In this document: one piece after another, positions 2,266 to 40,829 of the stretch | How the letters are laid out: the number at the start of each line of letters is the position of its first letter | How positions within the stretch are numbered: position 1 is the first letter of the stretch | NCBI RefSeq assembly: GCF_021134715.1 | Contig: NC_060021.1 | Coordinates: forward strand, 3,038,001-3,102,000 | DNA: 64,000 nucleotides | Direction of reading: 5' to 3' | Origin: Daphnia pulex | Lineage: Eukaryota; Arthropoda; Branchiopoda; Diplostraca; Daphniidae | Made by a program: the position numbers and the translations under genes | Notes under the pieces: model-generated | The model's database searches: none | Told to the model about the DNA's origin: nothing | The model's input: only the letters and a program-made list of their open reading frames with translations

Positions 2266-2441
2266 TGTAAGGATCGGGTTAACTCACCGCTCTGGCAGAG
2301 AGTAGTACCCGAACCCAGCCACGGGAGGGCACCCGCAACCAGCAAACAAGCGGCGCATCTATAGCACCAACAGCCATAAGCGCGCAATTCAAAAGACGTA
2401 TGCGCAAACGAGTCCGTTGAGCAAATAGGATCCGCTCACGG

Positions 2442-2670
2442 ACACCGTGATGCTGACTCACGGGGAGTATCCAGTGCTGACACCGTGAGGCTGACTCACG
2501 GAAGGTATCCAGTGCCGACACCGTGAGGCTGACTCACGGAAGGTATCCAGTGCCGACACCGTGAGGCTGACTCACGGGAAGTATCCATTGCCGACACCCT
2601 GATGTCGACACACGGGAGGTATCCATTCCCAACACCGCGATATCGACATCAGCCAGAGTATCAATCCCAA
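2442..2670 (+). promoter_or_regulatory. 38-bp tandem repeat in U3 with AP-1-like TGACTCA cores
   Basis: Six head-to-tail units of about 38 bp start ACACCG/ACACCC. The first four each contain GCTGACTCACGG, with TGACTCA at 2454, 2492, 2530 and 2568. TGACTCA is the consensus Jun/Fos (AP-1) site. The fifth and sixth units are more diverged and lose it. Position upstream of the LTR TATA box fits a U3 enhancer array. The same array is in the 3' LTR at about 14868-15096. Confidence 0.6.
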
Positions 2671-2728
2671 CACGGCAATAACAGCAATAACGAGATCAAT
2701 CTACGACGCTGACTTCCGCCTTGACCAG

Positions 2729-2736
2729 TATAAAAG
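2729..2736 (+). promoter_or_regulatory. LTR TATA box
   Basis: TATAAAAG, about 30 bp upstream of a CCAGTCTTC initiator-like sequence. The 3' LTR has the same box at 15155-15162. It should drive full-length genomic RNA for gag-pol. Confidence 0.65.
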
Positions 2737-3075
2737 CCCCCTTGTTTCCCTTGTATAACCAGTCTTCTCCGAGCAGGCCTTCACGCTGGTAAACCCTTTC
2801 TCTCTTATTATTCTGATATTGAATAGTCGCATTCGTGTATTTTTATGTTCAATCTCGTGTATTCAAATACAAACGTCATCCTCTTCCAAGTCGTTGCGTC
2901 TCCATTTCTTACAAGTAAAGTAAGGCTGGAACGAGCCTTACAAGTGGTGAACGTGCCAAAATATTGAACCTTTCAATTTGTACGAGTGTCCAAATATTTG
3001 TACAAATCTGAACATTTTGTGAACTATCTGGAGACAACGACAGTTCGACCCAGAAACGGAACATCGAGGACCCAC

Positions 3076-4887
3076 ATGACCGAGAATCGACAGCCCAAAT
3101 TGGAGGTAAATATAAAATCAGACTCACCTTCAAACCAAGTGGCCCCGAAAGACAGCGTAGAAACAAAACCAGAGACAGAACTGCGGAGATCACAAAGGCC
3201 AAGCCAAATTGCAGGACGTCTACAGCAATTAAGTACGAGAAGTTTCGAACTCAAACACAAAGTACTAAAGCTTAAAGAAAAGCCAAAAAGCGATAAAAGA
3301 GAAGCAAAGATCACTAAACTAGAAAAAGAAATAGCTGCAGTCGATAAAGAATTCATCGACATATACGACAGAAACAAAACAGAAATCCCGGTATTCGACA
3401 AAAGTCTTTCATCAACCCAAGAAGATTACTCATCCGAACAGACAGATACAGAAGAGGAAATGCCTAACACCCCAACACCATCGCCAGGGCCACCAGGTCC
3501 ACAAGGGCCACCAGGCCAACAAGGATCACCAGGCCAACAAGGACCACCGGGACAACCGGGGCAGGATGGCCAGCCTGGACCAGATGGACAACCAGGACCA
3601 CAAGGTGCTCCAGGGCAAGATGGTCAACAAGGACCCCAAGGCCCGCCAGGACCCCAAGGACCAATTGGACCGGCGCCGGTCGCAGGCGCCGGAGGAATCG
3701 ATCCAGGAGATTTCCGAACATTTTCAGCAGCCATGACAACGGGAATGCTAAATCTAGCAGCCGTCAATTATAGAAAAGATATTCCAGAATTCAGTGGCGA
3801 CCTAGATGACAACACTACATTTGAAAGCTGGCTAAAGAAAGCAAACAGAGTTGGCGTAGAAGCTGGATGGACCGAAGATCAGAAGTTGAAATTTTTCCAG
3901 TCCAAACTAAGGAGAGCAGCAGCTGCATTTAATAATTCGCTAGGAGTAAATATCAAAGCGAATCTTGCAGCGTGGACAGCAGCCATGGAAGCGGGATTCG
4001 ACGACGCGACGATACAAGATATGAGAAGAGCACAACTCAGCAAGATAGAGCAGAAATTCAACGAACGTATACGAGAATACAGACACCGCATCGATGAGCT
4101 ATACAAATCGGCCTACGGAAGAGCAGCCGCAGAAAGCCAGGACGCTGAAGTAATTCAACTAAGAAACGCTGTTAAAAAGGAGGCTTTGTTGAAAGGAATG
4201 CGCCTAACCATCAGGACAAGCCTATGGAATAGCTTGAAAGCAACGGATACCTACGAAGAAGTAGTGGAAAAAGCACAAGTATGCGAACAAGTCGTGGACT
4301 TGCGACGCCTGACAGAGGAATCAGAAGCCCATAAAAAAGCGGAGCAACAAGAAAACGAGAAAAATAAAAACCCCGAATTGCAACAGATTATGCAAGCTAT
4401 AGCTAACATACAGTTGTCTGCTGGCCCCGCAGGTGTAGCAGCAGGAACGGTAGCACACATATCCGAACAGAAGCAAGAGGGAGAGAAACAAGTCCGTTTT
4501 TCCGGAAGAAGCAGAAGTTATAGCCCAAGATATAGAGAGAGGCAAAACCCGGAGGACGTGGACGGACGCACGCGGTACTACCCGCTGGGGCAAAGATCGC
4601 AAAGTGATAACGACTGGAGACAGAATCGCCGTCAAGGAGCACAAGAAACACAACCACAAAGGAGTAATTCGCAAAGTCGTACGCCAGGAAATTGGGATAA
4701 CCAAAGGAACGGAGGATTCCCGGGAGGACTAGAAGACAGAACCTGTTTCTTTTGCAAGAATAAAGGACACATAAAAAGAGCCTGTCGCAAATACCAAAGA
4801 TGGCGCGAAGAAAATGTGAGAAGAAATCAAGCTCCCAGAGACCAAACCAGGAGACCGTTCAACAACCACAAGAACGTACGGAAATAA
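3076..4887 (+). CDS. gag: Gag polyprotein with a collagen-like domain
   Basis: 603 codons from the first ATG after the LTR (the frame is open a further 30 codons upstream without an ATG). Seen in order: a basic, polar N-terminus; a Lys/Glu-rich coiled-coil-like stretch around residues 60-100; an uninterrupted run of 21 Gly-X-Y triplets at residues 138-200 (nucleotides 3487-3675); a region fitting a Ty3/gypsy capsid (about 215-450, with FESWLKKA and a Trp/Leu-rich core); an Arg-rich C-terminus; and one CCHC zinc knuckle, C557-X2-C560-X4-H565-X4-C570. Gag assembles the particle and packages RNA. A collagen-like segment is not a usual Gag component. It overlaps the pol frame by about 120 nt, so Pol is probably made by -1 frameshifting. 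Confidence 0.9.
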
Positions 4888-7800
4888 TCGCATTCGGACA
4901 TGTATCAACAAAACAATGCGACCCATCCCAGTGTAAAATACAGTATAAGCCATTTACCATATTAGTGACAGTAGGCAGCAGACGAGTAGCAGCTTTAATA
5001 GACACGGGCTCCACGACGAGTGTAATCTCTTCCGACTTCGAAAAACAGATACCGCAAACAGCAAAGAAGGAAAGATCAATAGAGAACCTCAATCTCATTA
5101 CAGCATGTGGGGATCCAATGCCAAAAGTTAAAACAGTAGAATTGCAAGTGAAATTACACTCGGTGGATAGCGACCCGATTAAAAACAACTTCCACGTAGT
5201 GCCAAATTTAGCGGTTAGTTGCATCTTAGGAATGGATTTCATAACAAATCTAGAGTTTCGAATAAACACCGCCAGCAGGCGGATATCATACAAAAATAAC
5301 GGCAAACAGTACCACATCGTGGCCAAGGTATCAGAAATTCAACCATGTCAAGTATGCGTCATTATACATCAAAAACTCGATGAAGACATAAAAGAATTGA
5401 TCGGAAAAACAGAAATCAGAAAAGAAGATCTTCGAAAAGTACTGGAAAGAAATAAACATATATTCGCCACTTCAGATTCGGACTTCGGCGAAGCCATTGG
5501 AGAAGAACATAGCATTCCGACAGTGGGCCCTCCAGTATATATACCACCAAGACGCCAGCCACGAGTGATGTTGCCGGTTATAGAAAAACATGTAGAAATG
5601 ATGTTAGCAAACGATGTGATTGAAGAAAGTAAAAGTCCGTACAGTTCACCAATCCTATTAGTGAAAAAGAAGGATGGAACAATACGATTCTGTGTCGATT
5701 TCAGATTCGTAAATGATGTAACAATCAAGGACAAATTCCCAATCCCTAGTATTGAAGCAATAAAAGACGACCTGAAGGGAGCAAAATATTTCTCGACGCT
5801 TGATTTCATCAGTGGATACTGGCAAATACCAATAAAGAAGGAGGATAGGCACAAGACAGCCTTCACAACGCAAAATGGTCATTACCAATTCAAAAGAATG
5901 CCATTTGGTTTGACCAATGCACCTCCATGCTTCCAAAGAATTATGACTGGAATTCTGAGGAAAGTTATTGGGAAATTTGCATTAGTGTACTTGGATGATG
6001 TGATCATATTCTCGAAAACAGAAGAGGAACACATCAAGCATATCGAAGAAATATTTTCCCTCATCGCAAAATCAGGGATGAAACTAAAACTCTCCAAGTG
6101 CTGTTTCTTCGAATTGAGTGTACTATACCTAGGACACATAATCTCAGAAGAGGGTTCCGCGACAGACCCAAAGAAAATTGATGCAGTAAAAAATTACCCT
6201 GTACCAGAAAATAAACAGCATGTAAAAAGCTTTCTAGGATTTGTTGGATTTTACAGAAAGTACATAAGAAATTTCGGCAAAATCGCCCACCCACTCACAG
6301 AACTGACTAAAAACGACGTCGATTTTGTGTGGGGCACGGAACAAGAAAACGCCTTCCAAAAACTTAAGCTCAAATTGACTACGGCACCCATCTTAGCACA
6401 CCCGGATTTCACGGAGGAATATATAGTGCAAACCGACGCGTCAGGATACGGCGTTGGAGTAGTATTGGGACAAACCCAATGGGTGGATGGCAAGAGAAGA
6501 GACGTAGTAATTGCATACGGATCCAAACATCTGACTGACACTCAGGCAAGGTGGAGCACACTCGACAAAGAACTATATGCAATAATTTACGCGCTAGAAA
6601 AATTCCACACATACCTTTACGGTCCAAAGTTTACAGTATATACCGATTGTCAGGCATTGGTGAAGATATTTAAAAACCCATTAAAAAATGAAACGGCCAA
6701 AGTAACACGGTGGGTCCTACAAGCACAAAAGTATAATCTGGAAGTGAAGTTTCGCCCAGGATCGGCAAATGCAAACGCAGACGGATTAAGTCGAATCCCA
6801 CTCCCTACAAAAACGTATCTCCCTCCACATGTGACAACGGCGCCAATCTGTCTCATCGTGGAGAGTCTTACAACAGAACAAGGAAAAGATGCTTACTGCA
6901 AGGCAGCCCGGGAGACGTACGACAGACAAGTCAAGAGACTCGCAGTAAGGGAGGAAGTGTATCATAAAGTACAAGGCAACAATAAAGAAAAGAAATCTGG
7001 TAAAAGACGTACCCTCAGCCCACCCAATTACGATTTGGCAACAGACCCGCAAGAATCGGATTCAGAAGAAGAGCAATTCACAGTGTTAAACAATGGATTA
7101 CTAGCAACCAGTTACGGAAAGATACTAGCCCCAGAAGCGCTAAGAGAAAAAATCTTATTCAGATATCATGACGACCCATTGGCAGGCCATTTAGGGACAA
7201 AGAAAACAATAGGCAGAATACGCTGCAGGTATTTCTGGCCTGGAATGATTAAAGAGATAAAAACGTACGTAAAGAAATGTGCAGTCTGCGAAAAGAGAAA
7301 AGCTTTAGGGTCAAGTAAAGCACCGCTAAATCCCATAACACCTCCGGATAAGCCATGGCAACTAATGGCAATGGACATTCAAGGACCAATGGACCTCACA
7401 GAAAAAGGAAATAAGTATATACTCGTGATGGGCGAGTATTCAACAAGGTATATGATAGCAGCGGCTATGAAAGATCAAACGGCGGATAGTGTCCATGAAG
7501 CGTTCAGAGATAAAATCATCTTAACGCATGGAGTACCAGAAGAAGTACTGACGGACCAAGGTACAAATTTCTTATCAAAAACAATGGACGATTTTTACAG
7601 TCAACTGGGTGTAAAAAGAAAGAAAACGACTGCGTACAGACCCTGCTGTGACGGATTAGTCGAAAGATTCAACCGTACTTTGACAGACATGTTGGCCAGC
7701 TATCTGTCAAAAGGACGGACGAATTGGGACGACTACATTTCACATGCGACATTCGCGTACAACACGTCGGTACACGCCAGCACTGGATATACACCGCATT

Positions 7801-8786
7801 ACTTAATGTATGGAAGAGATGCAAGAGAACCAGGAGACGTTCTAGCACCGGTAAGAAACGAACTCATAACGGATCCAAATATGGCGTTCGCCAAAATGTG
7901 GACCTTGGCAAAATCAACGGCAAGAGACCGCCTAATGGAAGCCCAAGAAATTCAAAAACAATACTACGACAGAAAAGTGAAAACAGCAAAGACATACGAC
8001 GTAGGCACCAAAGTAATGATAAAGGTGGACGAAGATATCCCAGGAAAATTCAACATGAGGTGGAAAGGACCGTATACAGTACTAGAAAAGAAATCGGAAG
8101 TGAACTATAAATTGCTGACGCCGAAAGGAAAAGAATACGTCACGCATGTGGATCGAATGAAAAAGTGTAACAGTGAAAAACAAACAGACAGCATGGAAGA
8201 AGCAGCTTCAGAAGCAACCGGAACGAGAGTGAGTGAAACCCTCACAGCTGATAAAAAATTGACTGTCGTGGAATCACGCACTCGAGCGCCAGTTGACAAC
8301 AACCCAAACAACAGGATACACACAAATGAAAATCAGAATCAAGAAGCTGCAACGGCGGCCGCGACGGGAGCAGAAGAGATGACCGTAGCGTCAACAAAGG
8401 CTACGGCAAAATCTATTGCTCGAGTAACGGCCACCAAAAACCCGCCACCTGTAATAGAGAATGCAGCACAAAAAAGCAAAGGAGATTCAACGGCGGCCGC
8501 GACGAGAGCAAAAGAGATGACCTTAGCGTCATCGAATGCTAAGGAAAAATCTGATGCTCGAGCAGCAGCCACCAAAAATCCGCAACCTATAATAGGGAAT
8601 GAAGCACAAGAGAGCAAAGGAGATTCGGCGGCGACAGCGACTGTAACACAAGCAAGAGTCACAGCTTCAAAAACTGCTGTGACAAATGCTGGTACTAAGG
8701 TCGCAGCGCCAAGAAGAATACTCACGCGAGAAGTCATCTTCCCAAGAAAATACAAGGATTTCGTCGTACAAACAAGAAGAAACTAG
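4800..8786 (+). CDS. pol: Pol polyprotein: protease, reverse transcriptase, RNase H, integrase
   Basis: The frame is open from 4764, with an ATG at 4800 still inside gag, in the -1 frame relative to gag. Numbering from 4800: aspartic protease DTGS at 68-71; reverse transcriptase from about 230 with YLDD at 397-400; RNase H with TDAS around 545; integrase zinc site starting H790 and H797 with a following CxxC; integrase core with the first Asp near MAMDIQG, the second in DQGTNF and the catalytic Glu in the GLVERFNR region. These are Ty3/gypsy features and all catalytic motifs look intact. The last 200 or so residues are an Ala/Thr/Lys-rich tail containing imperfect ~45-residue repeats (about nt 8335-8640). 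I see no chromodomain. Confidence 0.95.
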
Positions 8787-8954
8787 AGGAACAACAGAAG
8801 GAAGGATATCGAAAAAAAAAAACAAAAACAAAAAAACAAAAACAAAACAAAACAAAACGAAAAAAAAAAAGGATCACATCCCTCCTCTCTGTACCTTTAG
8901 TGTTGAACAAGTATTTCACCAATCAATACAAATCTGCAACGCCTTCCCTTACAG
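8787..8954 (+). other. A-rich pol-env spacer with candidate env splice acceptor
   Basis: About 60 bp of A-rich sequence (8810-8870) is followed by a pyrimidine-rich stretch ending CCTTCCCTTACAG immediately before the env ATG at 8955. This is a good 3' splice site, so env is probably translated from a spliced subgenomic RNA as in env-bearing gypsy elements. The matching donor upstream was not identified. Confidence 0.5.
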
Positions 8955-11000
8955 ATGTTCTTCGTACTACTCATCATTGGAGCGAATTCTCAAACGACGG
9001 GAGGAAACAACATTACCGTATGCGACTGCGGACGCGCAGAAGTAATCGGCTTGATGGACATCAACCTACCATCGTATTGCGACGATAACATCACTTCAAC
9101 CCAATCGGTGATAGAAGCGTATGATTTTTACGTAACGGAAGAACCACACACCGTGTGGAGCGCAGATTTATGCATGACATGGCGAAAAACAAGGACAACG
9201 TCTGGATATTTTTTTGGCTCATTTGACACAATCGACACCATGGTCACGTCCGTGACTACGGCGGACGAGTGCAGGCAACTAGTCAAAAGTCATGTTTGCG
9301 ATGGCAACAAGATGACAGAGTTAAACGAAAATGCTTACGAATTCAAAGGAAACCCTACACAAAAAGGCACCTGGATGCAGGAGGTAATCGAAACTAAAAA
9401 GAACTGCGCAACAAAGAAGATACTACTACATAGAGATTGTCTTACCTGCCCTGTTATGTCTCCGTTCGGCGTGTTGACAAACAAAACGGACGAGACATCA
9501 GTAGTATCCCGCGACGTCACCATCATCTGGGAGACACCGATCCTACAAAAAGACGAAAAATGCAAATTAAAGAGAGTAATATGCGCAACAGGGACCACGA
9601 CAAAACAAGATGACGGATCATTCAAGCTTGTAGATGAAATAAACCAATTGGAATTTCACTATGAAGAGAAAACGTACGAATTCTGCAATCACACGTTTCA
9701 CAAATTAGCAAACTTAAAGAACGCATATATCGAGCTGCCCAACAAAGCGAAAAAAGAGGGCATGCAATTATTTAACCGTCAACACAAAATGTGTTTGAAC
9801 TTTCAGACGCTAGAATTGGATCAGTGCAGGCCGGTGGAAGAGCAATGGTATAAACTCTCCCAAACGCTAATCGTGCAATCTTTTAAAGACTCATCTTCTT
9901 GCATGGGATTTGTTGACCACGAGTTACAAAGAACAAACAAGAGATGTGATATGCAAAAGATGCCCCACGAAGGCGAATTAATACGCAGGGACTACAGACC
10001 CAAAATAATACCACTTGTTTGGAATCCACAAACAAAGGCACTAACGGATGGTGTCTATTGTTTGGAGGCCTACAAAGACAAACGAGTAGAGGCGGTAAAT
10101 TGCTCACCAAAAAAGACAAATCAGCAGTGGATATTCGAACCCGAAAGGAGGAAAACAAGTGGCAAAACAGAAGAAATTGGACCACTACTGGCTCAACATC
10201 ATCAATATATCGAAGATAAAACACTAGAAAGAGAAAACGCACTGCTGAAGGAAATAAAAGAAATATACTGCGGCAACTTACAGCTCAGAAAATATACGAC
10301 ACAACTACTAGCAGAAAATAATGGATTGCAGGCAGCTATGGCTAACAACTTACCTATTTGTAGTCGATTGAAACCAAACGGAATACACTTGATAATTCAA
10401 CAATGTGAAGCGAAGAATGTCACCATTCGAGGACAGAAAACGAAGTGCGGTTTCGAGCCTCGATTCGACAATTATACTGTCGGCCGGGATGGCTACTCGC
10501 TCCACCCATTCCAAGAATGCTTCTGGAAGGACCAAATAATTAATTTAAATGGTCATTCGTATTCCTGGAATAGCACATCTGAGAATTATACAAGAGTATA
10601 TCCAACCTACCACCTGGCAACGATCAACTTACAACAAAAGTTCCCAGATCTTGATGACAACGAGCTAGAATATCAACTACTGCAACACAAAGCCTACGAA
10701 ACGAGCGAATTCGAGCAACAAAATGTTATAAACGAGCTAATAACAAGGATCCACGAAGACAATGGAGAATCAATTTCAGAGATCACATTAAATAAACACG
10801 CTGAGTCGCGATTTTGGAGCCTGAGCAACTGGACGACATCATTAAAAACGAGCTTAATATCAGCAACAGTAATCATCCCAATAGCATCATTTGCCTGTCT
10901 GGCATTGGCCTATTTTAGACTAAAGCAGATAAAGCATCAAAAAGAGCTGACAGAGTTCGCTCTACGGCTTCAGGCAAATCAACTGATGAGCCCACCGTAA
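8955..11000 (+). CDS. env: Env-like membrane glycoprotein
   Basis: 681 codons. A short hydrophobic N-terminus (residues 1-13, MFFVLLIIGANSQ) fits a signal peptide. It is followed by a long Cys-rich ectodomain with many N-X-S/T sites, a hydrophobic segment about 640-662 (VIIPIASFACLALAYF) and a short basic/polar tail. This is the topology of a type I viral envelope protein. Two stretches (about residues 275-300 and 365-392) each have a Cys-X...Cys spacing followed by QW, faintly like ricin-B QxW repeats. I see no obvious RXXR-plus-fusion-peptide arrangement of baculovirus F/errantivirus Env. Its origin may instead be a negative-strand RNA virus glycoprotein, as proposed for some arthropod elements, but I cannot settle this from sequence alone. 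The frame is intact. Confidence 0.8.
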   Translation: MFFVLLIIGANSQTTGGNNITVCDCGRAEVIGLMDINLPSYCDDNITSTQSVIEAYDFYVTEEPHTVWSADLCMTWRKTRTTSGYFFGSFDTIDTMVTSVTTADECRQLVKSHVCDGNKMTELNENAYEFKGNPTQKGTWMQEVIETKKNCATKKILLHRDCLTCPVMSPFGVLTNKTDETSVVSRDVTIIWETPILQKDEKCKLKRVICATGTTTKQDDGSFKLVDEINQLEFHYEEKTYEFCNHTFHKLANLKNAYIELPNKAKKEGMQLFNRQHKMCLNFQTLELDQCRPVEEQWYKLSQTLIVQSFKDSSSCMGFVDHELQRTNKRCDMQKMPHEGELIRRDYRPKIIPLVWNPQTKALTDGVYCLEAYKDKRVEAVNCSPKKTNQQWIFEPERRKTSGKTEEIGPLLAQHHQYIEDKTLERENALLKEIKEIYCGNLQLRKYTTQLLAENNGLQAAMANNLPICSRLKPNGIHLIIQQCEAKNVTIRGQKTKCGFEPRFDNYTVGRDGYSLHPFQECFWKDQIINLNGHSYSWNSTSENYTRVYPTYHLATINLQQKFPDLDDNELEYQLLQHKAYETSEFEQQNVINELITRIHEDNGESISEITLNKHAESRFWSLSNWTTSLKTSLISATVIIPIASFACLALAYFRLKQIKHQKELTEFALRLQANQLMSPP

Positions 11001-11629
11001 GCAACAGACCAAATGCCCGAATATATATGTATCGATTAATCATTAAAAAATTCACCCATCAAGCATCATCAACACACAAGCCTATCATAAGAAAAGTCAA
11101 GGAAAGAAAGAAAGAAAGACAGAGTCAATGCAACTGCAGCCGAGCGGCCATCACAAAAAGGGAGGGACCGGCCGCATAAAATCCCAAACCCAACGCCATT
11201 GGCCCGCCCACAGCCAATGAGCATCGACGGCAAAGGAAAAAGCTAAGCCCAACCCCCTTCTGTGAACAACACACAGGCCATACGATCGCGCCGTCAAAGA
11301 CGGACGCATATAGAGCAACATACGATCTGCCATAGGTTAACGGTTGCAAGACTCATCATTCGAAGAATATATATATAGCAGCATATCAGTTGAACATCCG
11401 TAGTCATATGCCAGATAACTAATTAACACGCAGAGTATCGGATTCAAATAGCTCGAACGCCTACGCAGCATCAAACAGCTGCAAACAAATAGCCAAATGC
11501 AATCAAACAAGCCAGTCAGCAGAAAGTCGGTATATAAAGACGAACGCCTACACATTAAAACGACGCAGTAAGAAAGCAGCAGCGCAACGGCCAACAATAG
11601 ACATCGCAACAGAAAAGATTTTTCCAAAA
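11001..11629 (+). other. env-accessory ORF spacer
   Basis: No coding capacity of note on the plus strand. The latter part is a probable leader with a TATA box at 11531. A minus-strand frame here (about 11337-11738) is a shadow. Confidence 0.4.
11531..11538 (+). promoter_or_regulatory. candidate internal promoter (TATA box) for the accessory ORF
   Basis: TATATAAA lies 99 bp upstream of the accessory ATG at 11630, with a CGCAGTAAG initiator-like sequence about 30 bp after it near 11562. No ATG intervenes between that site and 11630. Core element and spacing fit an RNA polymerase II promoter inside the retroelement, independent of the LTR. Confidence 0.45.
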
Positions 11630-12388
11630 ATGATGAGACGCGACCCAGCAGAAGAAAGAGCCGAAGAAGAAGAGCTGCACGGACCCGGATACAACTTGCG
11701 GCCACGCTCAAGGTCGGCGAGCGCGGACGATGCGGCACGAAAAAACAAATACAAGGTATTAACGGTCATTCACGCACCAGAAATTCTTAAGACACCAACC
11801 TATAGAACGCGGACGGAAACGATGGTGACACGAAGAGAAGAATGGGCAAAAGAGACACGGCAAGACGGAGGAAGCAGCCAAGCAGGCCCCGGAAATGAAG
11901 ACCTAGCCGAAGAAATAATTCAAGAATGGGAAGAATTTTGCAGGACGCCAAGCAAGAAGAAAAATCAAGAAATACCAGAGTCACCAGATTCACCAGAAGG
12001 ACCGCCGTCCGGCGTGCGCGTCCAGCCGATCAAAATGAAAAGAACATCCGGATATACAACAAACAAGGAAATAGAAGATCTGCTGAAAGAACAAGAAAAT
12101 TGGGAGCTGACTGCATCATCTCCGGTAGTGACGGTGAGTCACGATCGCCCACAGTCAAGAAGAGGTGAAGAAAATCAACAAGAAAAGGACTACGATCCAG
12201 AAAATAGGACTCTGCCGAGCTACCTAAAACAACTGAGGCGTATATTGTTGCGCCTACGGGAGGCAGCAACAGCCGCCCGCCGAAATCTGGACCAAATCAG
12301 ACGACTCGCATACGATGGCGATATCGTAGAAAACGGAATCCAACAGCTGGTAGGAGAGCAGGAGATGGACACCGAGGACGACGAGTAA
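11630..12388 (+). CDS. accessory protein of the retroelement, function unknown
   Basis: 252 codons from tandem ATGs in an AAAAATGATG context. The protein is highly charged: a Glu/Arg-rich N-terminus with GYNLRPR near residue 22, a mid-region rich in Glu, Lys, Pro and Ser, a basic amphipathic stretch rich in Leu and Arg around 200-225 (LRRILLRLREA) and an acidic end. I see no signal peptide, membrane span or zinc site. This looks like a soluble, possibly nuclear, regulatory protein rather than an enzyme. It sits after env where complex retroviruses keep regulatory genes, has its own TATA box and faces the antisense gene. GYNLRPR-type motifs recur in other transposable-element proteins, so a split-off Gag- or Pol-derived tail is an alternative. 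Confidence 0.6.
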   Translation: MMRRDPAEERAEEEELHGPGYNLRPRSRSASADDAARKNKYKVLTVIHAPEILKTPTYRTRTETMVTRREEWAKETRQDGGSSQAGPGNEDLAEEIIQEWEEFCRTPSKKKNQEIPESPDSPEGPPSGVRVQPIKMKRTSGYTTNKEIEDLLKEQENWELTASSPVVTVSHDRPQSRRGEENQQEKDYDPENRTLPSYLKQLRRILLRLREAATAARRNLDQIRRLAYDGDIVENGIQQLVGEQEMDTEDDE

Positions 12389-12484
12389 CCAAGTATTGTA
12401 CGTGTAATGATCAGAAAGTCATTGCATTTCCCCCTATGTTTAACCGTAGTAACAAATAGAACGGACACATTATTTACTTGTCCT

Positions 12485-12780
12485 ATTGATTCAATGCATT
12501 TTATACTCCATTTTCATATTGATTAAATGCATTTTTACACTCCATTTTTCTATGGATTTAACGCATTTTACACTCCATTTTTCTATTGATTAAATGCATT
12601 TTTATACTCCATTTTCCTATTGATTTAACGCATTTTTACACTCCATTTTCCTATGGATTTACCGCATTTTACACTCCATTTTTCTATTGATTAAATGCAT
12701 TTTTATACTCCATTTTTCCCATTGATTCAACGCATTTTTATACTTCATTTTCTTGTCCTATTGAGCCATACATTTTACCT
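12485..12780 (+). repeat. ~34-bp tandem repeat between two convergent retroelement genes
   Basis: Eight or nine imperfect copies of a unit of the type ATTGATTAAATGCATTTTTA followed by CACTCCATTTTTCT. Alternate copies read ATGGATTTAACG, giving a loose higher-order pattern. At least three copies carry ATTAAA, the commonest variant poly(A) hexamer, on the plus strand, followed by T-rich tracts. It lies directly after the accessory ORF stop (12388) and before the poly(A) signal of the antisense gene. Confidence 0.8.
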
Positions 12781-12902
12781 CGTCTTACTCTAGTATAGCT
12801 TTCGTCCCATTTTTTTCCCATTTTTATGCCATTTTTTTTGTACTGTTTTCTTTTCAAAAAAAAAAATAACAAAGCGAAAAAGAAAAGTCAGAATTAAAAA
12901 CT

Positions 12903-12908
12903 TTTATT
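12903..12908 (-). terminator. poly(A) signal of the antisense gene
   Basis: AATAAA on the minus strand (CAATAAAAG), about 68 nt past the antisense stop codon at 12976-12978. This is a normal spacing for a 3' UTR and supports the antisense gene as a real transcription unit. Confidence 0.55.
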
Positions 12909-12975
12909 GATCGAAGGCAGGGGAATACATTTTCTTTTAGCCAACGAAAAAATAATAAAAGACTAGACAACGAGA

Positions 12976-13799
12976 CTAGTTGTCGCGATGAGGCGGGAGC
13001 ATCCGATTTTGGTCGTCCTGTTCTAGCTTAGATAGATGAGCATCCATATGACGCCGAAAGGCGTAGTATGCCGCGATGCGTTCCTGCGTAGTATAGCCTA
13101 AAAAAAAAAAAAAAAAAAAAAAGAGAAAGAAAAGTAGTCAGTTAACACATAAAACAAAAAAAAAAAGGTGGCAACAAAACGATTTAGATACTCACTAGTC
13201 AGCAGAGAGGCCAGGTAATTCGCCTCAAGCGAATACTGGGTCTCAAAGTCAAAAGGCTCTAAAGGGCTCGAAGAAGAGGAGCCCTCCGACGACACCAGTG
13301 GCGTCGGGCAGCCGGAAACCGAAACACTCGGAGACACCAACGTCGGCGGTCGGATGGGGACAAGCGCTGGCATACCACCTGCGCTTTGCACCCTTCCGGA
13401 CGGCGACGCGGGCGGGGGCTGAGGCACCGGGGTGGCTACAAACGCCCGGAAAGCCGAGCGGGCCGGGCTGGTCGGTCGCACAAACGACTCGACAACGGAT
13501 GGGCCGGAAGGGCCACCCGCCGGGACACGCAAAGGCACCCCACAACTTTTTCTAGCCGTCGGCCGACATGGGCCGGAACGACAAGCCGCCGGAGGCACAA
13601 CGGAGCCAGCTTGGCTCCGGGACGGCGGCTGAACGAATCCAGAAGGGCCAGCGGACGGAACAATTCGAGGTGATTCGGGACGAACCCGAATGACGAGGGG
13701 GGGAACTACCGATGACGAGGGCAACTGGGGAATCCCCACAGTAGAACTAGCGGAGGACTCCGCATAAGCGACGCGCTTAAATCTTTTAGGGCGCGGCAT
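12976..13799 (-). CDS. antisense two-exon gene inside the LTR element, function unknown
   Basis: Exon 1 is 13196-13799 (ATG at 13797-13799, context AAAAATGCC). The intron is 13098-13195 (98 nt, GTGAGT donor, 22-T tract plus AG acceptor). Exon 2 is 12976-13097. The donor is phase 1 and splicing keeps an open frame of 241 codons ending TAG. Unspliced, the frame instead reads into the intron's T tract as poly-Phe. The protein starts MPRPKRFKRV, resembling a nuclear localisation signal, is Pro/Ser-rich for most of its length and ends in a charged segment with an FRRHMDAHL motif. Exon 1 is GC-rich, unlike its surroundings. An AATAAA follows at 12903. Family unknown. A TATA-like ATATATATA lies upstream at about 14050. 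It could be a captured host gene or a retroviral antisense gene. Confidence 0.6.
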
Positions 13800-13829
13800 T
13801 TTTAAAGCTAGAACAGAGAGGTGCAACTT

Positions 13830-14691
13830 TTTTCACTCAAAGTAAAAGAACGATAGATGCGCACTAGGGCGAGGCGAAATAGGCAATGAACAGAAATAGT
13901 GAAATCTCTGACGAAAATAAAAAGACCACCCGTTAGACCATCGTCAGCAAGTAAGGACACCCACCAAATCCTCGTTTCAAATAGCTAAAAGATCGTATAA
14001 ATAACAAAAAAAAAAAGAAAAAGAATACATTTACACTATACTTCCCCATATATATATTCAAGAAACAGAACCAAACAAATAACATGTAACACAATACAAA
14101 AAAAAAAAAAATGTATTTGTCCTACTGCAAAGCTTAAGAAAGTAGAAATATTAATCGAAGAGGATGACAATATAGAGCACATTGTATTTCAAATTGTTTA
14201 CGCTACATTTTAGCTTCAATAATCAACCTATTTTCCATTACGACCATGTTATGTCCCATGATAACCATGTTATGTCCCATGATAACCATGTTATGCCCCA
14301 TGATGCCATTATAGAAAGTCGAAAAATCTTGAAACCATCAAAGGTGAAGGAACAAAAAGAAAAAAAAAAAAAGAGAAGGCGATGTCATTTAATCAAAGGC
14401 GAATTATTGAAAAACGCGCAAGAAAAAGAAACAAAAGAGCCAACGACGAGCCAGTGTAACCAAAGCGTACCAGTCGCGCATACGTAACACTGCAGTAGCC
14501 GGCGGGCAGATAAATTCCGATGAAAGTTTCAAGGCCACCCCATGCATATGTATTGTACAGCGCCGTAAAAGCTGTGAAACTATCGTACATTACCTGTTTA
14601 AATGTTTCTTTCAATGCATTCTATTAACCGATCCTTAGCTTAGCTTAATATTTTATTTGCCCGGGAGTGCAAATTTAAAAGGGGGGGAGTG
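13830..14691 (+). other. 3' non-coding region and polypurine tract
   Basis: A mostly AT-rich tail. It includes three tandem 21-bp units (about 14244-14306, each with CCATGTTATG) inside a short plus-strand frame (14182-14487) that ends in a Lys-rich tract. I doubt this is a gene. The polypurine tract AAAAGGGGGGGAG at 14677-14689 sits just before the 3' LTR and would prime plus-strand DNA synthesis. Confidence 0.6.
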
Positions 14692-15368
14692 TGTAAGGAT
14701 CGGGTTAACTCACCGCTCTGGCAGAGAGTAGTACCCGAACCCAGCCACGGGAGGGCACCCGCAACCAGCAAACAAGCGGCGCATCTATAGCACCAACAGC
14801 CATAAGCGCGCAATTCAAAAGACGTATGCGCAAACGAGTCCGTTGAGCAAATAGGATCCGCTCACGGACACCGTGATGCTGACTCACGGGGAGTATCCAG
14901 TGCTGACACCGTGAGGCTGACTCACGGAAGGTATCCAGTGCCGACACCGTGAGGCTGACTCACGGAAGGTATCCAGTGCCGACACCGTGAGGCTGACTCA
15001 CGGGAAGTATCCATTGCCGACACCCTGATGTCGACACACGGGAGGTATCCATTCCCAACACCGCGATATCGACATCAGCCAGAGTATCAATCCCAACACG
15101 GCAATAACAGCAATAACGAGATCAATCTACGACGCTGACTTCCGCCTTGACCAGTATAAAAGCCCCCTTGTTTCCCTTGTATAACCAGTCTTCTCCGAGC
15201 AGGCCTTCACGCTGGTAAACCCTTTCTCTCTTATTATTCTGATATTGAATAGTCGCATTCGTGTATTTTTATGTTCAATCTCGTGTATTCAAATACAAAC
15301 GTCATCCTCTTACAAGTCGTTGCGTCTCCATTTCTTACAAGTAAAGTAAGGCTGGAACGAGCCTTACA
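14692..15368 (+). repeat. 3' LTR
   Basis: A copy of 2266-2942, including the 38-bp AP-1-like array and TATA box (15155-15162). It is followed by CAAA, matching the four bases before the 5' LTR. Confidence 0.95.
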
Positions 15369-18755: not shown

Positions 18756-19474
18756 TAGCGCTTGCACCCGAATTGCGTTTGATTCAAATCGCTTCAACTC
18801 GAATTGCGTTTTTTTTTAGATTTTTCAAATATTCAGTTCATTTCGAATTGGAAAAATCCAAATTCATATTCATTCGGATTGTGAAATTTTTGGGCAAATA
18901 TTCATTTCCCGATTCATGAATATATTCATTGTGAATATTCACGAATATTTGGGTCAATTCTTGTCAAATTTGAAAAAAAAAATGTTTTTATTGGAAAGTG
19001 GAGAGGTGGTGATATAGTCTGTTGTACTATGTGAAACAGCAAGTTAAAAAATATTTATTTTAATTATAAAATTCTTAAATTAATTTATGATGTTGTTCAT
19101 AGGTATTTACTTTATTCGCTAAAAAATTATTACTTTTGTACATTAAGTTTTTTAGTTTTTTAATAAATAAAAAAAGCCCTCTAAAAATCTTTAAAAAAAT
19201 ACAGGATGTTTTTGGAATTTACTCAAAATTTTAAAAGAAAAATGAGATAGCAAAAGTGTAGATATACCTTTTATCTTTAATCCCCCAAACAATAAAATTT
19301 CTTACTTCAAAAATGTGTTTTATAATTTAAGTTCTCCCAAAAGCGTTTTTGGGGGTTTTAAACAAATAATTTTTAAACATACCAAAAAATCTAAAACCAA
19401 ACTCAAAAGCCAAATACAAACACCACATACAAACACTGCCAAAAAACAAATACTAGGTGGAAAATATAATCGCA

Positions 19475-19891
19475 CGAGTAGCCTGAGCCCCGGTCAAATC
19501 CGGGGAACTTTGGTCAAGCATAAAGTCGGACTCTTTTTCTATTCTCTTTTCTGTAGCTTAATAGCACGATCTGCCCATAATAGATCTTATCGTGGGAAAT
19601 CTGCCCAGTCAGTAGATTCCCTACCTTACTTGAAGATTTCGTCATCACGGCGATGCTATAGACATCTGGTGGTGATGCTGGTTGTTGCGTCATGGTTGGG
19701 ACATCAACGATTACGCTATTACGGCGACGCTATAAACATCTGGCGTTGATTTGTTTGGGCATCTTTGGGCAGCGACTCGACTGACCAATCACAGCGTATT
19801 CGCATTGTGACATGAATAAGCTCCTCCCCCAAAATGTTCGTGACAGACACAGGCTCCTCCCCAAAAAGCTTGTTCTTTTATTACATATGGA
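19475..19891 (-). mobile_element. Helitron-like repeat, copy A (nested)
   Basis: On the minus strand it starts TCCATATGTAATAAAAG and ends with a GC hairpin CCGG..ATTTGAC.. just before GGCTACTCG. The interior shares blocks such as CACCACCAGATGTC and GGGGAGGAGC with four other copies in the window. It has no coding capacity. Confidence 0.5.
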
Positions 19892-19933
19892 TGATATTTT
19901 TGAATTAATTTATAACAATATTTTATTGCTTTA

Positions 19934-20310
19934 CGAGTAACCTGAGCCCCGTTCAAATCCGGGGAACTTTGGTCTAGCGTAAAGTCAGACCCTTTTGCTA
20001 TTCGCTTTTCTGTAGCTTAATCATCTGCCCGTAATAGAATTTATCGTGGAAAATCTGCCCGGTACTTGAAGATTTCGTCATCACGGAGACGCTATAGACA
20101 TCTGGTGGTGACGCTAATTGTTGCGTCACCAAAGATTGCGTCATCACGGCGACGACATCTGGTGGTGATGGGCATGTTTGAGCATGTTCCATTTTGGGGG
20201 AGGAGCCTGTGTTGACACATTGTTGACCCAGACACAGGCTCCTCCCCCCAAAATGTCCGTGACATGAATAAGCCCCTCCCACAAAAGCTTGTTGTTTTAT
20301 TATATATAGA
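19934..20310 (-). mobile_element. Helitron-like repeat, copy B (nested)
   Basis: Same family and orientation as copy A, about 40 bp further on. Its start reads TCTATATATAATAAAAC and its end is the palindrome CCCCGGATTTGAACGGGG followed by CTCAGGTTACTCG on the minus strand. Non-coding. Confidence 0.5.
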
Positions 20311-21623
20311 TTTAGAGTGTTTCGCCCTGCCCCATAAAAACCCCGAATTTTTCCACGCCCACTTTTTTCCGCAACTTTAAAAATCGGTAGCGGGTAAACT
20401 AACGACTTTAAAATAAAATAAAAAATATTGCATGTAGAAAAAAGTGAGGCAAATACAATAAAATATTTATTTTACAAATCGGATGATTAGGAAAGGCCCT
20501 ACACGAGAAAAACCAAAACCGGTCCAAATAACCCCACTCTCCCCTACAACATTTTTAGTTTCAATTTCGACCGCTAGATGTGCCACCTCTTCGTTTCGTT
20601 AAACGAAGGAGATATTCTATTGTAATTAAATTATCACTAAATTAAGTGCGGTTAAAATTTTGGATGTTTTAGTGTAATATTTCTTGCCAAATTCAAGAAA
20701 TAACTTTTTAGAATTTTTCGTGATTTCATTCGAATGGATTCTAATGGAGTTTCTGGCAATTCGATTTAATTCATTTTCAACTCAAATAACGTTAAAAAAA
20801 CAATTCAACTCGAATTTCGATTTTTTATGCGAATTGATTCGAGTGCGAGCGCTAGTCCTGGCTGACTGGATGGCCGAGAAAGATCAGGATTGACGTAGGT
20901 GACGAGGATTCCTGTGATAGGCCGTGGTGGCGCGAACGTCAGCGAACGGATAGCAACGTAGTTTCCGTAGTATCCACCATTTGCGGCGCCGAGACCGTAT
21001 CCGTAAATTTGAGCTTGAATTTGGGCGGCAAGAACCAACACCAACAGGCACGCGATCTGCGTATGGGATTACCAATATGTTAATTTAAAGAATTACGTCA
21101 AGATGAAATGTAAAATGAATCTAATCAAACAATAAAAATAAACATTTGCGTGCTTTTAGAGAAAAACCACGCTCTTGACGAGAAACTCTACGAGAAAAAC
21201 CCGTGCTTTATTTTCTGACTGGTTATCGAGTATCAGCTATCCGCATTACTAACCTCGGGAAAATAATACTACCGCCGAAATTATGTCATCATTGGCTAAA
21301 TATATCGGTGAGTTTTTTTCCCATGGACACGGATAACATTTGTCAAGTTACTATTGGTTGATTCCAGTTTAGATTGACAGCACGCACGCGAAATTCAATT
21401 GAGTATATAATAGAACGTATAATTTAGAGCATCTTATATTGTCTAATACACCATTCAAATATTTCAGATACGCTTTGGCAGCCAGAGGTAAATAAAGCAA
21501 TTTCCACCGTCGTCTCTACATTCAAATTTGTCAAGCGGTTTTATTAGGCTACATGAAAACATCTTTTGCAATGTTTTCATTGGTAAGCTAAAATATATTA
21601 CTTTATTCTTCACAGTTCATATC

Positions 21624-22278
21624 ATGAGCAGACTACTAATTGTCGAGATTGTACCGTTAGTCAATTAATATAAACATTTTTATTTTCATATCAGTTTCTC
21701 GTTATGAGTTTGATGTTGGTCACATCGCAAGCGGCCCAATTTGATGGTAAGTATAACGCACAAGTTCATAAGGGAAAGGAAACTGCAAATAGGCCTATAC
21801 CTGTATGAAAATACTAAATGATTCAAATTTTGAACAGACGTTTGCAGTTTGAAGCGAGAATCCGTCAAGTGCCGAACATTACTTCCCACTTGGTATTTCG
21901 ACAAAGCGACTGGAACTTGTTACTCGTTCAACATCGGTGAATGCAGCAGCAACTTTAACAGTTTCGGGACAAAAAAGATGTGTGAGAAGAGGTGCGCAAC
22001 ACCGGCAAGTAAGTCTACTAAAATTCAAAAAATACAAAACTGCACACATCATTATGATTAATTCTTTTCTCGCAGATGTGTGCACTTTAAAAAAAGACTC
22101 TGGAATGTGCCGAGCGGCGGTAACTGCGTGGTATTTCGATCCGCCAACTGACTCGCGTAATAAAGGCGAATGCAAAAATTTTATTTACGGCGGCTGCGGT
22201 GGCAACGCAAATTGTTTCGCGTCCAAGAAGAAATGCGACGACATGTGCGCTTACTTACCCTTTGGAGCCTCAAAATAA
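21624..22278 (+). CDS. secreted two-domain Kunitz-type protease inhibitor
   Basis: Four exons: 21624-21650, 21695-21746, 21838-22008 and 22076-22278. All boundaries are GT-AG and the phases agree, giving 150 codons. The first two exons make a signal peptide (MSRLLIVEIFLVMSLM...SQA). Exon 3 is one Kunitz/BPTI domain and exon 4 a second, each with all six cysteines at BPTI spacing. The residue after the second Cys (P1) is Arg in both, predicting trypsin-like serine protease targets. Domain 2 has the canonical YGGCGGNAN loop; domain 1 is more diverged there (IGECSSNFN). The exon 1 donor (GTACCG) is weak, so the extreme N-terminus is the least certain part. One domain per exon is usual for the family. 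Confidence 0.8.
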
Positions 22279-23645
22279 TTGCGAGCCCGAAGTGCGAAGC
22301 TAATAATCGCATACGCAGAAAAAAAAAAGCCATGTCACTTTGTCTGTATGTATGTATGTAACGCTCCATAGCTCGGGCCTTTTACGACACATTTCAGACT
22401 TTTTGGTCTTAAAAATTAGACAAAAAATATGCGGTGCGACCAGAACAAAAATAATTCCATTTACTTAATTAGTTTTCCCGTAATTAATGAAAAACTGCTA
22501 AAATAACAGCATAATGACCAGTGACATCTGGCGGTGGCGACTACAACTTTTTTTACTGTAGGTCAAAATAAATCACCACCAGATGTCCATAGCATCGCCG
22601 TGATGACGCAATCTGTAATGTCCCAACCATGACGCAACAATCAGAATTGCAATTAAGTTTGCAGTTACTAAACTAAAGAGCGGTTAGTTTTTAAGTTTCA
22701 AAATCACTGAACTTTATGTGTAAAAATAGGAAAATATGAGTTGAGCAAACTAAACGTAATTAACTTGCAAGGATATTTAACTGACAGAAAAATCCCGTTT
22801 TAAGACAAAAAAGTCTGTGAAGAAAAGTGTGAATAACAGATTCACAACAGATTTCGGACTTTTTGGTCTTAATAATTACACAAAAAATATGCGGTGCTGC
22901 CAGAACAAAAATAATTTCATTTACTTTGATAATGGATCGAATTAAAAGACAAAAAATAGATTGTTGGTTATAGCGCTGGCATGATAATGAAGAGGGTCAT
23001 GGTTTAAGTCTCATTATAGATTTACTTTTTTTAGAATAAAAATATTGTTTTGACCCATGCCCTTTGTTAACCGTTAATTTCGTGATAGAAGTTTTTTCCA
23101 GAAAATTTCAAAGAAAAAACATAGAATTTACAGAAAAATTCTGAAAAATTAGGAAGGCATTAAGCAAAAAGTCCGACTTAATAATAGGCCCTGAATTTTT
23201 CATTTAAGACAGTTTTCAACTGGCTTACGTTTATCCCTTCGCGGCGAGCTGATAAGCTTGCTTTTCTATCTTTAACCTACTAGATGTTTCCCGCGACTAT
23301 AAAACTAACGAACAACAAAATCTTCGTTGGATGATGAATTGCTAAGAAGAAGACCATTCAGGCTAAACCGTTATCTTTTGTGCACCACCTCCTTTGCTAT
23401 TTAAAATTGTATCCTTATAATTGGCTATAGTTCCGGAAAATAAATTGCATCAGTTATTATTTGAAAATGGTGTTCCGTATAGGGTAATCGTTGATAAAGG
23501 GTAATCGGCTAATAATAGAGGGAAATAAAGTAAATTCAGAGTCGAGAAAAATATTTTTTTAAATCATTTGTATTCGACTGTTTATTATCAGAATCAAGTT
23601 TAATCGAGAGTTTTATTATTCAACGTGTAACACAGGGGCTGAAAC
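22279..23645. other. non-coding, repeat-rich spacer
   Basis: A partial Helitron-like fragment (about 22510-22640, with CACCACCAGATGTCC) and a short duplicated segment (GGACTTTTTGGTCTTAA type, near 22400 and 22860). No gene is seen. The last ~80 bp are a diverged match to the sequence preceding array units 2 and 3. Confidence 0.45.
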
Positions 23646-24758
23646 TTACAGCTGGTGCGGTGGCCACCAGGTGTAATCGTATTCAGTGGTCCGGGTTCCA
23701 CCTTCGTACAAGTAATGCGGATAGGCAGTACAACTCATGTGATGGAGAGGATTCGTTCCCTCGCAAGGTGTGCAATGTCTTCTGTTCGGTGTCCCGGCTT
23801 TGTCGATCCAAAAACTGAGTGCCCTTTGGTTGATCTGAAGCGGAATGTATTCATCGTAACGCAGTCCCCACTTCCACATGTCCACGTCCGTTTCAAAATA
23901 CTTCTGAAATTGTTCTTCTTTGGCGGAATGATGGGCTCGGCGGCGGATGTCTTCCGGAAACCAGTAGCGATTCCCACGGTCATTCAGTGCGTAAATGTGG
24001 TTCATGTTGTTACTCGGTTCGTTGACATATTTTTCATTGACGAATCTCGTCGCCTTGGGAATTTCTTTGTTCGAGTCGAGATCGTTTTCCACAATGCAGC
24101 GCAAGTAATGGTAACGATCCTTGCAAACGGTGCACACACGTCTAATGTCGTGTATGCAGTTGCGGACGGTGAAAGCATTCGCCCACCACTCGATGCTGAA
24201 CTCCATCAGTTGAAGAGCAACTTGCAGACGTTCGTAAGAATTCACGGGATGTCGTGTTATCAGATCGAAGGCTCTTGTGTTGGTCATTTCGGGTTCTGTC
24301 AATGGACGAATTTCAGTTGGAGGCTGCGCCTGACAAACGAATGGTTGGCAATTTGACGTGGTACACGGAGGATGCGTCGGACAGGGTCTGCAAGTCTGAG
24401 CTGGACTATTGGGGCAAGGCAAAGCGGCTATCGGCGGACAAGTTGGTGGGGATGTACAAGGTGGCAAATTGCTTGGTGGTGCTGGGCAGCTGGTTGCTGG
24501 AGCCGGTGGCAGGCAAATTATTTCGGTTTCTACACCAGTTGGAATGCAGAAATTATAATAAACAATCAGTCCTGTAGCCGTCATCAAAATGAAACCGATG
24601 AAAACAAAAAGGAGAAAAAACCACTTCTGACGGGACATGCATGAGCAGTTGCTTGCCCTGCCGTTTGCTAGAGACGCCATTTTTATTGAGTTTAAATGCG
24701 TGTACTTTTCAGCAGCAGCCAATGCCCTTAAGTAGACTCGGAGGTTCGAGAGTGACAT
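23646..24758 (-). CDS. type II membrane protein with Pro/Cys-rich stalk, unit 1
   Basis: 370 codons from the ATG at 24756-24758. An in-frame ATG at 24678-24680 (context AAAAATGGC) would give 344 codons and is also plausible. A short cytosolic N-terminus (CSCMSRQKW) precedes one transmembrane helix (FFLLFVFIGFILMTATGLIVYY), with no cleavable signal. Then comes a ~75-residue stalk rich in Pro and Cys (CPAPPSNLPPC, CPPIAALPCP), then a ~200-residue extracellular domain with paired cysteines (CIHDIRRVCTVC, HCTPCEG) and many Trp/Tyr, ending WWPPHQL. I do not recognise the family. The topology suggests a type II surface or secretory-pathway protein. The long plus-strand frame opposite (23655-24356) is its shadow. 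Confidence 0.7.
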   Translation of the reverse strand: MSLSNLRVYLRALAAAEKYTHLNSIKMASLANGRASNCSCMSRQKWFFLLFVFIGFILMTATGLIVYYNFCIPTGVETEIICLPPAPATSCPAPPSNLPPCTSPPTCPPIAALPCPNSPAQTCRPCPTHPPCTTSNCQPFVCQAQPPTEIRPLTEPEMTNTRAFDLITRHPVNSYERLQVALQLMEFSIEWWANAFTVRNCIHDIRRVCTVCKDRYHYLRCIVENDLDSNKEIPKATRFVNEKYVNEPSNNMNHIYALNDRGNRYWFPEDIRRRAHHSAKEEQFQKYFETDVDMWKWGLRYDEYIPLQINQRALSFWIDKAGTPNRRHCTPCEGTNPLHHMSCTAYPHYLYEGGTRTTEYDYTWWPPHQL

Positions 24759-25300
24759 TGGCACTAGAGTTGCCGTTGCGATTCGACAAATTATGCGTTA
24801 AAAATCGGACTTCCTGTCAAATTAATTTTGATTTTCCATATTTGCTTAATTATTCCGACCTTGTTCAACCATTAATTTATTGATTTGAGCAACATATAGT
24901 TTTATATCTTCAAATTATAAGCAAGTGGTTGTTGCGTTACGAGTTGTGTGTTGTTACGGATTCGAACGCCAGGGGGCAGAATTGCCCGGCTGAAAATCCT
25001 GCAATAACTCGGCAATAACTTAACCGCCATAAAATGTTCTAGCTTTGGGAACGAGGTTTTTTAAAATGGATCCTAATACTTGGATTTTGTAGAACCAGCC
25101 TAAATATTTTATGCAAACACTTGAAATCAATCCAAATATAATTATAACTCAAATGTTCATGCACATAATCAACGAGTGATAATTCCTTTCATATTACTTT
25201 TGAATATCAAGATGCATTCAAAAAAATAATCCACCAAGTTAAATTTATTAAATAAAAAAAATTCGTGTACGAAGCAAGTCGTAGCATAATATTACATTAT
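24759..25300. other. upstream region of the membrane gene and 3' flank of the peptide remnant
   Basis: AT-rich with no gene. About 25120-25290 is related to 28930-29100 in the same unit (shared ATGCACATAATC and GATAATTCCTTT-type blocks), an older duplication inside the unit. Also present in unit 2 (30320-30861). Confidence 0.4.
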
Positions 25301-25324
25301 TAGCATACAGTTTACCATCTTCTT

Positions 25325-27202: not shown

Positions 27203-27299
27203 GTTGGTTGGTTGGTTGCAGACTTTGTCGACTGATGTCCACTCCGGTCTCAGCTAAAAGCTTTTATACTTTGCGGACCAAAGCAGCAGTGTGGTGGCG

Positions 27300-37330: not shown

Positions 37331-37494
37331 GATTGCCGTTCTTATCCTGTCTTTTTTCTCTGTTAGCTCTAGCTGCGAGTTAGCTGTACCAATCCATCCA
37401 TTCGATGTTTTTAAAAAATTCGCGCAACCTAATCAGAAACTTTATACATCTCCTACATCTAGCGATAAAGAATGAAACCCCACCGCAGATTTTA

Positions 37495-40785: not shown

Positions 40786-40829
40786 GAAGGACCTACTCTG
40801 ACTCGGGCGGAAATTTTGGCTGCCCGATT

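Follow-up and report, generated by a model that had tools for sequence, protein, structure and literature searches.

The 64,000-nucleotide (nt) stretch of the Daphnia pulex genome analysed here (the window; NC_060021.1, positions 3,038,001 to 3,102,000 of the forward strand, called contig C5 below) contains a complete Ty3/gypsy element at window positions 2266-15368. The element carries gag, pol, an env-like open reading frame (ORF3) and a further frame, ORF4. Its two long terminal repeats (LTRs) of 677 bp differ by 1 mismatch, have TG..CA ends and are bordered on both sides by a CAAA target duplication. The LTR pair, gag, the short target duplication and the order of protease (PR), reverse transcriptase (RT), RNase H (RH) and integrase (IN) in pol assign the element to the Ty3/gypsy group (Metaviridae). 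The Pfam domains within pol are found at 54-155 (PR), 288-448 (RT), 511-645 (RH) and 778-948 (IN).

The strand opposite gag-pol-env carries another gene, consisting of two exons, between ORF4 and the 3' LTR, with its ATG 893 bp away from the LTR. A sequence-only reading of the window had described it, and every coordinate proposed there for the ATG, the donor, the acceptor, the 98-nt intron, the frame to the stop and the AATAAA was found to be exact. Its placement antisense to gag-pol-env and within a Ty3/gypsy element is confirmed by the LTR pair and the pol domains.

The same reading held that this pattern is hard to get by chance. A two-exon model was defined as an ATG, a GTRAGT donor, an intron of 60-130 nt, a pyrimidine-rich YAG acceptor and a second exon of at least 30 codons, with a product of at least 140 amino acids. 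The sense strand of the element contains no such model and the antisense strand contains one, the antisense gene itself. At least one model appeared in 9 of 200 antisense strands randomised with a first-order Markov model and in 10 of 200 randomised block-wise (250-nt blocks). The evidence from the window sequence alone is weak, about 1 in 20 by chance, and in this respect the claim was too strong. Chance is excluded by the conservation among copies.

Conservation of the antisense gene among copies

The genome of 133 Mb in 13 contigs was searched, and all copy comparisons are within this genome. The DNA search gave 10 matching stretches including that of the window, and protein searches added more diverged copies. 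The copies compared include a second one on contig C5 (C5b) and more diverged ones on contigs C8 (C8a, C8b and C8d) and C1.

The ratio of nonsynonymous to synonymous substitution rates (dN/dS) was calculated by the Nei-Gojobori method with a script of our own, using 300 neutral simulations for each comparison of exon 1. Five copies were compared (the window, C5b, C8a, C8b and C8d), excluding the fragments in loci L012, L013, L014 and L015 and the 2029 piece of locus L009. The ratio is 0.25 for window-C8a, 0.31 for window-C8b, 0.31 for C8a-C8b and 0.24 for C5b-C8a, each below all 300 simulations. For window-C8d it is 0.41 over 64 codons, below the 5% quantile of 0.51 and above the simulation minimum of 0.32. 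In exon 2, the window and C8a have 10.0 differences at 13.2 synonymous sites and 3.0 differences at 49.8 nonsynonymous sites. The antisense frame has the lowest ratio among the six frames in all six exon 1 comparisons, and it is the sole frame free of stops across the entire exon 1 of the window. No sense ORF, therefore, accounts for the constraint on exon 1. Sense-strand coding was considered as its source and rejected, the other exon 1 frames having stops and higher ratios.

The intron ends were looked for in the window and seven other copies, the fragments L013 and L015 being left out. Both ends were found, as GTRAGT...YAG, in the window and in five of the seven. The intron is 98 nt long in the window and 94, 76, 96, 78 and 83 nt in the others; in a second family of elements, described below, the lengths are 107 and 100 nt. 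Because the search pattern required these ends, the ends are not independent evidence; what is independent is the placement of the intron between matching exons. Relative to the window, the C8a and C8b introns are 47-49% identical, and their exon stretches 67-87%. The ends are kept, the interior has diverged, and the position and phase are common to the homologues, as in a spliceosomal intron.

The AATAAA is present in C5b, C8b and C1 and is missing from the C8a fragment. Upstream of the gene, a conserved stretch (Table 1) is a putative promoter and 5' untranslated region, although it could alternatively serve the sense RNA; in C8a and C8b, identity over its part at 13900-13999 is 93-95%. An acceptor right before the ATG, which would produce a first exon like that of HBZ of human T-cell leukemia virus (HTLV), was also considered. 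The TAG of the window is not kept there in C5b, C8a and C8b (by eye), and this candidate was rejected.

In the three elements with an LTR found at both ends, namely the window element, C5b and an element on contig C10, the gene is intact over its full length, ATG to stop. The C8 and C1 copies compared are broken or partial. Conservation among copies of the frame, the splice sites and a dN/dS below 1 had been named beforehand as a test of the gene, and within this genome it was passed. Stops in other copies had been named among the grounds for rejecting it; stops and frameshifts do occur in some old copies, as is expected of dead ones, and the three LTR-paired elements retain the frame.

The element on contig C10 (C10:8105014-8112747, loci L019/L020, reverse strand) represents a second family. 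Its LTRs, 551 bp long, differ from each other by 2 mismatches and 1 gap, and an ACAT duplication flanks the element. Identity to the window element is 60-66% in gag, 71% at the start of pol and 84% at the end of env. The remainder of pol and env has no match and appears to be deleted; gag, ORF4 and the antisense gene have been kept in this recent element. The antisense homologue, again between ORF4 and the 3' LTR, encodes 148 residues when spliced, and its 107-nt intron interrupts the same codon in the same phase. The C1 copy is of this second type and is itself dead; between C10 and C1, dN/dS in exon 1 is 0.24, below all 500 simulations (minimum 0.27). Common to both families are a basic N-terminus, the motif MPxLxPIxPPTL and the C-terminal stretch around the splice, DFxxQxxLxAxYLxxLLTS followed by TTxExIAxYxxFRxxMDAxLxxL. 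The Pro/Ser-rich middle is mostly absent from the C10 product and from the family member P0017. Since two distinct families carry the gene with the same intron, it appears to have been inherited with the elements themselves.

The antisense layout occurs in seven loci: the window, C5b, the main copy of L009, L010/L011, L019/L020, L027 and L028. Counted were fetched loci in which the gene is accompanied by another part of an element of the same kind, and two partial L009 copies were left out. Loci L023 and L025 have just weak pol-like neighbours, and L013, L014, L015 and L021 have no other element part within the fetched flanks. An env-bearing locus on contig C12 has no antisense relative in its fetched flank, where other repeats follow env, so that it is uninformative. 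No antisense relative is present in the fetched stretch around an env-like piece on C8 (L018), near which no LTR is listed. The gene is thus a coding frame antisense to the element, between pol and the 3' LTR and conserved among copies, which are the properties of the antisense ORFs called aORF-3R.

Other parts of the element and of the window

Table 1. Features of the Ty3/gypsy element and its antisense gene (window positions)
Feature	Position	Strand	Remarks
Antisense exon 1	13196..13799	-	ATG at 13799 (AAAAATGCC); N-terminus MPRPKRFKRV; Pro/Ser-rich middle; MPALVPIRPPTL motif; FDFETQ...LLT
Intron	13098..13195	-	98 nt, phase 1; GTGAGT donor at 13195, TTTAG acceptor ending at 13098
Antisense exon 2	12976..13097	-	40 codons including the split codon, then in-frame TAG 12978-12976; second hairpin helix (predicted)
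AATAAA of antisense gene	12903..12908	-	starts at 12908, 68 nt past the stop
Conserved stretch, putative promoter and 5' untranslated region	13900..14250	-	86-97% identity to C8a and C8b in three sub-stretches
5' LTR	2266..2942	+	TGTAAGG...CCTTACA; CAAA target-site duplication outside at 2262-2265
Primer-binding-site-like stretch TGGTGAACGTGCC	2945..2957	+	by eye; complement also present in the C10 element
gag	3076..4884	+	collagen-like repeats; CCHC knuckle below Pfam cut-off; dN/dS 0.07 against C5b
pol	4800..8786	+	protease, RT, RNase H, integrase; dN/dS 0.04 against C5b
env-like ORF3	8955..11000	+	hydrophobic N-terminus, many Cys, hydrophobic C-terminal segment (by eye)
ORF4, second accessory frame, sense	11423..12388	+	dN/dS 0.18, 0.06, 0.10 against three copies, two partial; homologue in C10
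34-nt tandem array	12481..12752	.	between ORF4 and the antisense gene
Polypurine tract	14676..14691	+	directly before the 3' LTR
3' LTR	14692..15368	+	followed by CAAA duplication

ORF4 is under selection, with dN/dS of 0.18, 0.06 and 0.10 against three copies, two of them partial, and has a homologue of 36% identity in the C10 element. In C5b it contains 1 stop in the part compared. The env-like ORF3 has 25 relatives in the protein search, with no Pfam family above the cut-off and no PDB sequence match. The Env of errantiviruses is of the F type. It is derived from baculoviruses (PMC12440569). Collagen-like repeats are unusual in a gag protein; here Gly-Pro repeats of this kind occupy window 3484-3664 (PF01391, E 1.8e-08).

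The LTR search gave 32 places, among which only the two C5 elements pair up 12-13 kb apart. The C5b element lies at C5:3262807-3275730, and it and the window element each have near-identical LTRs of their own. Compared in 500-nt pieces, these two young elements are 97.2-100% alike at 3266-12265, about 90% at 13766-14765 and 92% at the LTR start. This uneven similarity suggests recombination between subfamilies. Elsewhere in the window, a stretch at 23646-35069 is present in three repeats with a 5.56-kb spacing and 100% identity over the 300-nt pieces shown. A repeat pair about 8.94 kb apart (37861-47487, pieces 91-99% identical) is possibly a further LTR element. Direct and inverted repeats are clustered at 19465-22647 and 36307-37338, the inverted arms being 82-97% complementary.

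The protein product and its proposed action

The spliced product has 241 residues and an isoelectric point (pI) of 10.2. With 16% Pro, 16% Ser and the basic MPRPKRFKRV at its start, it agrees with its initial description as a Pro/Ser-rich protein with an N-terminus like a nuclear localization signal. In an AlphaFold model (P0003, 18 sequences) with a mean confidence score (pLDDT) of 52, the only structure is a pair of helices, residues 182-198 and 200-228, and the second reaches a pLDDT of 83-87 in residues 201-220. Residue 199, encoded by the split codon, separates the two predicted helices, so that the second helix would be lost without splicing. Splicing is thus predicted to complete a C-terminal helical hairpin.

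For the antisense protein, Pfam gave nothing at E values up to 1 and the PDB search gave no match. Two protein searches gave 21 and 28 matches, which overlap; in the second the best 8000 candidates were scored. All named relatives in these searches are D. pulex hypothetical proteins. Three of them (DAPPUDRAFT_110965, 116856 and 116418) are gene models with the same splice junction, and relatives of the env-like protein, on contigs of equal length, are tagged next to two of these (110964 by 110965 and 116854 by 116856). Viral contigs gave 20 pattern matches and no relative of the antisense protein.

The antisense gene is almost certainly a true accessory gene of an env-bearing Ty3/gypsy element, coding for a protein and containing an intron, and, judged by its copies, very probably a real, old and spliced one. 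Once the element is integrated, a promoter immediately 5' of the ATG would let host polymerase II transcribe the minus strand. The short intron would then be cut out by the splicing machinery of the host, uniting the two halves of the helical hairpin, and the AATAAA would end the message. The genomic sense RNA would hold the intron as its reverse complement, unspliced, and the intron would thereby outlive retrotransposition. Its persistence through the RNA stage would thus be explained by the antisense orientation, and, as the reversed intron in the sense RNA is not spliced, the mature protein could come from provirus-derived antisense RNA only. The product, small, mostly disordered and with a basic N-terminus resembling a nuclear signal, would act in the nucleus on sense transcription or RNA handling. 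The probability of the whole explanation, an accessory gene with this nuclear mode of action, is put at about 0.7. A regulatory role in the nucleus, considered by itself, has slightly less than an even chance.

Several observations weigh against this explanation. The window-C5b comparison is weak (dN/dS 0.33 in exon 1, 11 differences, at the 5% quantile), and the C5b intron is 95% identical to that of the window, like its exons. For C10 against C1, one reverse frame has a ratio of 0.26, yet that frame contains 6-7 stops; the C10 copy has no AATAAA. C8a has a stop, C8b a stop and a frameshift in exon 2, and C1 has lost the ATG and has a stop. The gene is not antisense in L012, which has an inverted junction, or in L026, where env and the gene are on one strand. 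The genome search at up to 1 mismatch found no intronless copy and hence no retrocopy evidence for splicing; as a control, a probe of the exon-2 motif with the acceptor matched 6 exact sites, so that the probe works. At up to 2 mismatches, the exon-2 motif gave 20 sites versus 23 in the control, and the weak sites were discarded. The three spliced D. pulex entries are annotations, and a fourth model, 117388, does not have the spliced C-terminus. Proteins from other contigs (mostly JGI) that reach the junction continue into the intron, as DNA would. By eye, P0020, P0022, P0027 and P0028 diverge from the family sequence and are probably dead or chimeric. The AlphaFold model is mostly of low confidence, about 58-68 in the first helix, and two products, those of C10 (pI 5.5) and P0017 (pI 5.8), are acidic overall. 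Since no domain was matched, the role is argued from composition and analogy.

The acidity of these two products, the env-like gene in the same element and a Pro-rich sequence with short conserved motifs, modelled as mostly disordered but with a helical hairpin, would also suit a protein of the cytoplasm or the particle. Such a factor for assembly, budding or cell-to-cell passage would bind RNA, not importin, by its basic N-terminus. This is unlikely. A structural protein would be ill-suited to the antisense position, where it would need a promoter of its own and its expression would oppose the synthesis of genomic RNA, and nuclear antisense proteins are known from some plant gypsy elements (PMC7264820).

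The antisense transcript might instead matter as an RNA that silences or tunes the sense RNA through double strands, small RNAs or promoter interference, coding being secondary. The hbz RNA of HTLV-1 has both coding and non-coding activities (PMC10186651), non-coding antisense RNAs have been reported for micropia and TART (PMC7264820), and in C8a and C8b the conservation of the stretch upstream of the Daphnia gene equals or exceeds that of the exons. Selection tracks codons, however, and the second family retains the protein motifs and the intron site despite low overall identity, which makes this still less likely than a cytoplasmic protein.

The frame might also belong to a Daphnia host gene family captured by the elements, with host copies still serving the host. 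The loci without any other element part in their fetched flanks would fit this, as would the GC content of exon 1, 63% versus 42-47% in gag, pol and env. Among the copies examined, however, no intact one lies outside an element, the intact ones being the three LTR-paired elements, and the named relatives in the two protein searches are all D. pulex hypothetical proteins; capture from the host is thus highly improbable. An open frame with splice-like sites arising by chance, although about 5% of randomised strands yield a comparable model, is contradicted by purifying selection in several copy pairs and by the same-intron homologue in the second family, and its probability is negligible.

Related systems and significance

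The sequence-only reading had compared the gene with the spliced antisense genes of HTLV-type viruses. The parallel holds for a spliced antisense gene; by position and orientation, antisense ORFs in the gypsy elements of plants and fungi come closest (PMC7264820). Those of plants (aORF-3R; Grande gene23, Retand) are likewise antisense in Ty3/gypsy elements between pol and the 3' LTR and conserved within a family and across families (PMC7264820, PMC11963269). Grande gene23 has its own internal promoter and a nuclear product, and tandem repeats, like the 34-nt array here, are frequent in this region of Retand elements (PMC7264820, PMC11963269). The Daphnia element differs in its animal host, its env-like gene and the intron in its antisense gene; the word 'intron' is absent from the main text of both papers. 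The Retand domain PF04195 had no Pfam match in the Daphnia element. Boty / BcGypsy1 of Botrytis, also a gypsy element with an added antisense gene, brtn (PMC7264820, PMC8365987), is fungal.

HBZ of HTLV-1 and APH of HTLV-2/3/4 likewise lie antisense at the 3' end of an LTR element with env, and are spliced; they have nuclear forms, and several are reported inhibitors of sense transcription (PMC10186651). The start of the HBZ RNA, however, is within the 3' LTR, and the splice forms of HBZ vary at the N-terminus, whereas the Daphnia ATG is 893 bp from the LTR and the Daphnia splice sets the C-terminus. A bZIP domain, present in HBZ only, was not found in the Daphnia protein by Pfam at E up to 1. 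A bolder proposal, possible though doubtful, is that gypsy elements with env in water fleas arrived independently at the layout of complex retroviruses, placing an accessory gene in sense and a spliced gene in antisense between env and the 3' LTR. The antisense protein would be a provirus-only regulator like HBZ, a switch of latency or copy number, and the intron a strand lock, the completed hairpin arising from nuclear antisense RNA only.

Among animal elements, the LTR elements of bdelloid rotifers have extra ORF3s expressed from spliced messages; in the main text of that paper 'antisense' occurs once, for small RNAs, and 'intron' does not occur (PMC5408684). For Penelope elements an antisense template is likewise argued to preserve introns, which are unrecognised in reverse, but these elements belong to another class of retroelement with another mechanism, in which a host gene was moved in trans (PMC3846280). 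The main text of a survey of D. pulex LTR elements contains none of the words 'antisense', 'intron' and 'envelope' (PMC2996953). Antisense genes as such are thus established for HTLV and for gypsy elements of plants and fungi. An intron-bearing one in an animal gypsy element appears to be new, as no report of it was found among the matches listed in open-licence PubMed Central (PMC) papers; within this scope, the initial statement that none is known in gypsy elements of the insect or crustacean type stands.

Retroviral antisense genes are best known from viruses of the HTLV and human immunodeficiency virus (HIV) types, and the roles of the plant and fungal counterparts are unknown (PMC7264820). 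The Daphnia gene is an example of how a retroelement can retain an intron through reverse transcription. Annotation of transposable elements on the sense strand only would overlook such genes. That an intron-containing antisense gene under selection is old enough to occur in two families of an animal gypsy element suggests a repeated origin of antisense accessory genes among LTR elements, and Daphnia, which is clonal and sequenced, is a tractable host in which to ask what such genes do.
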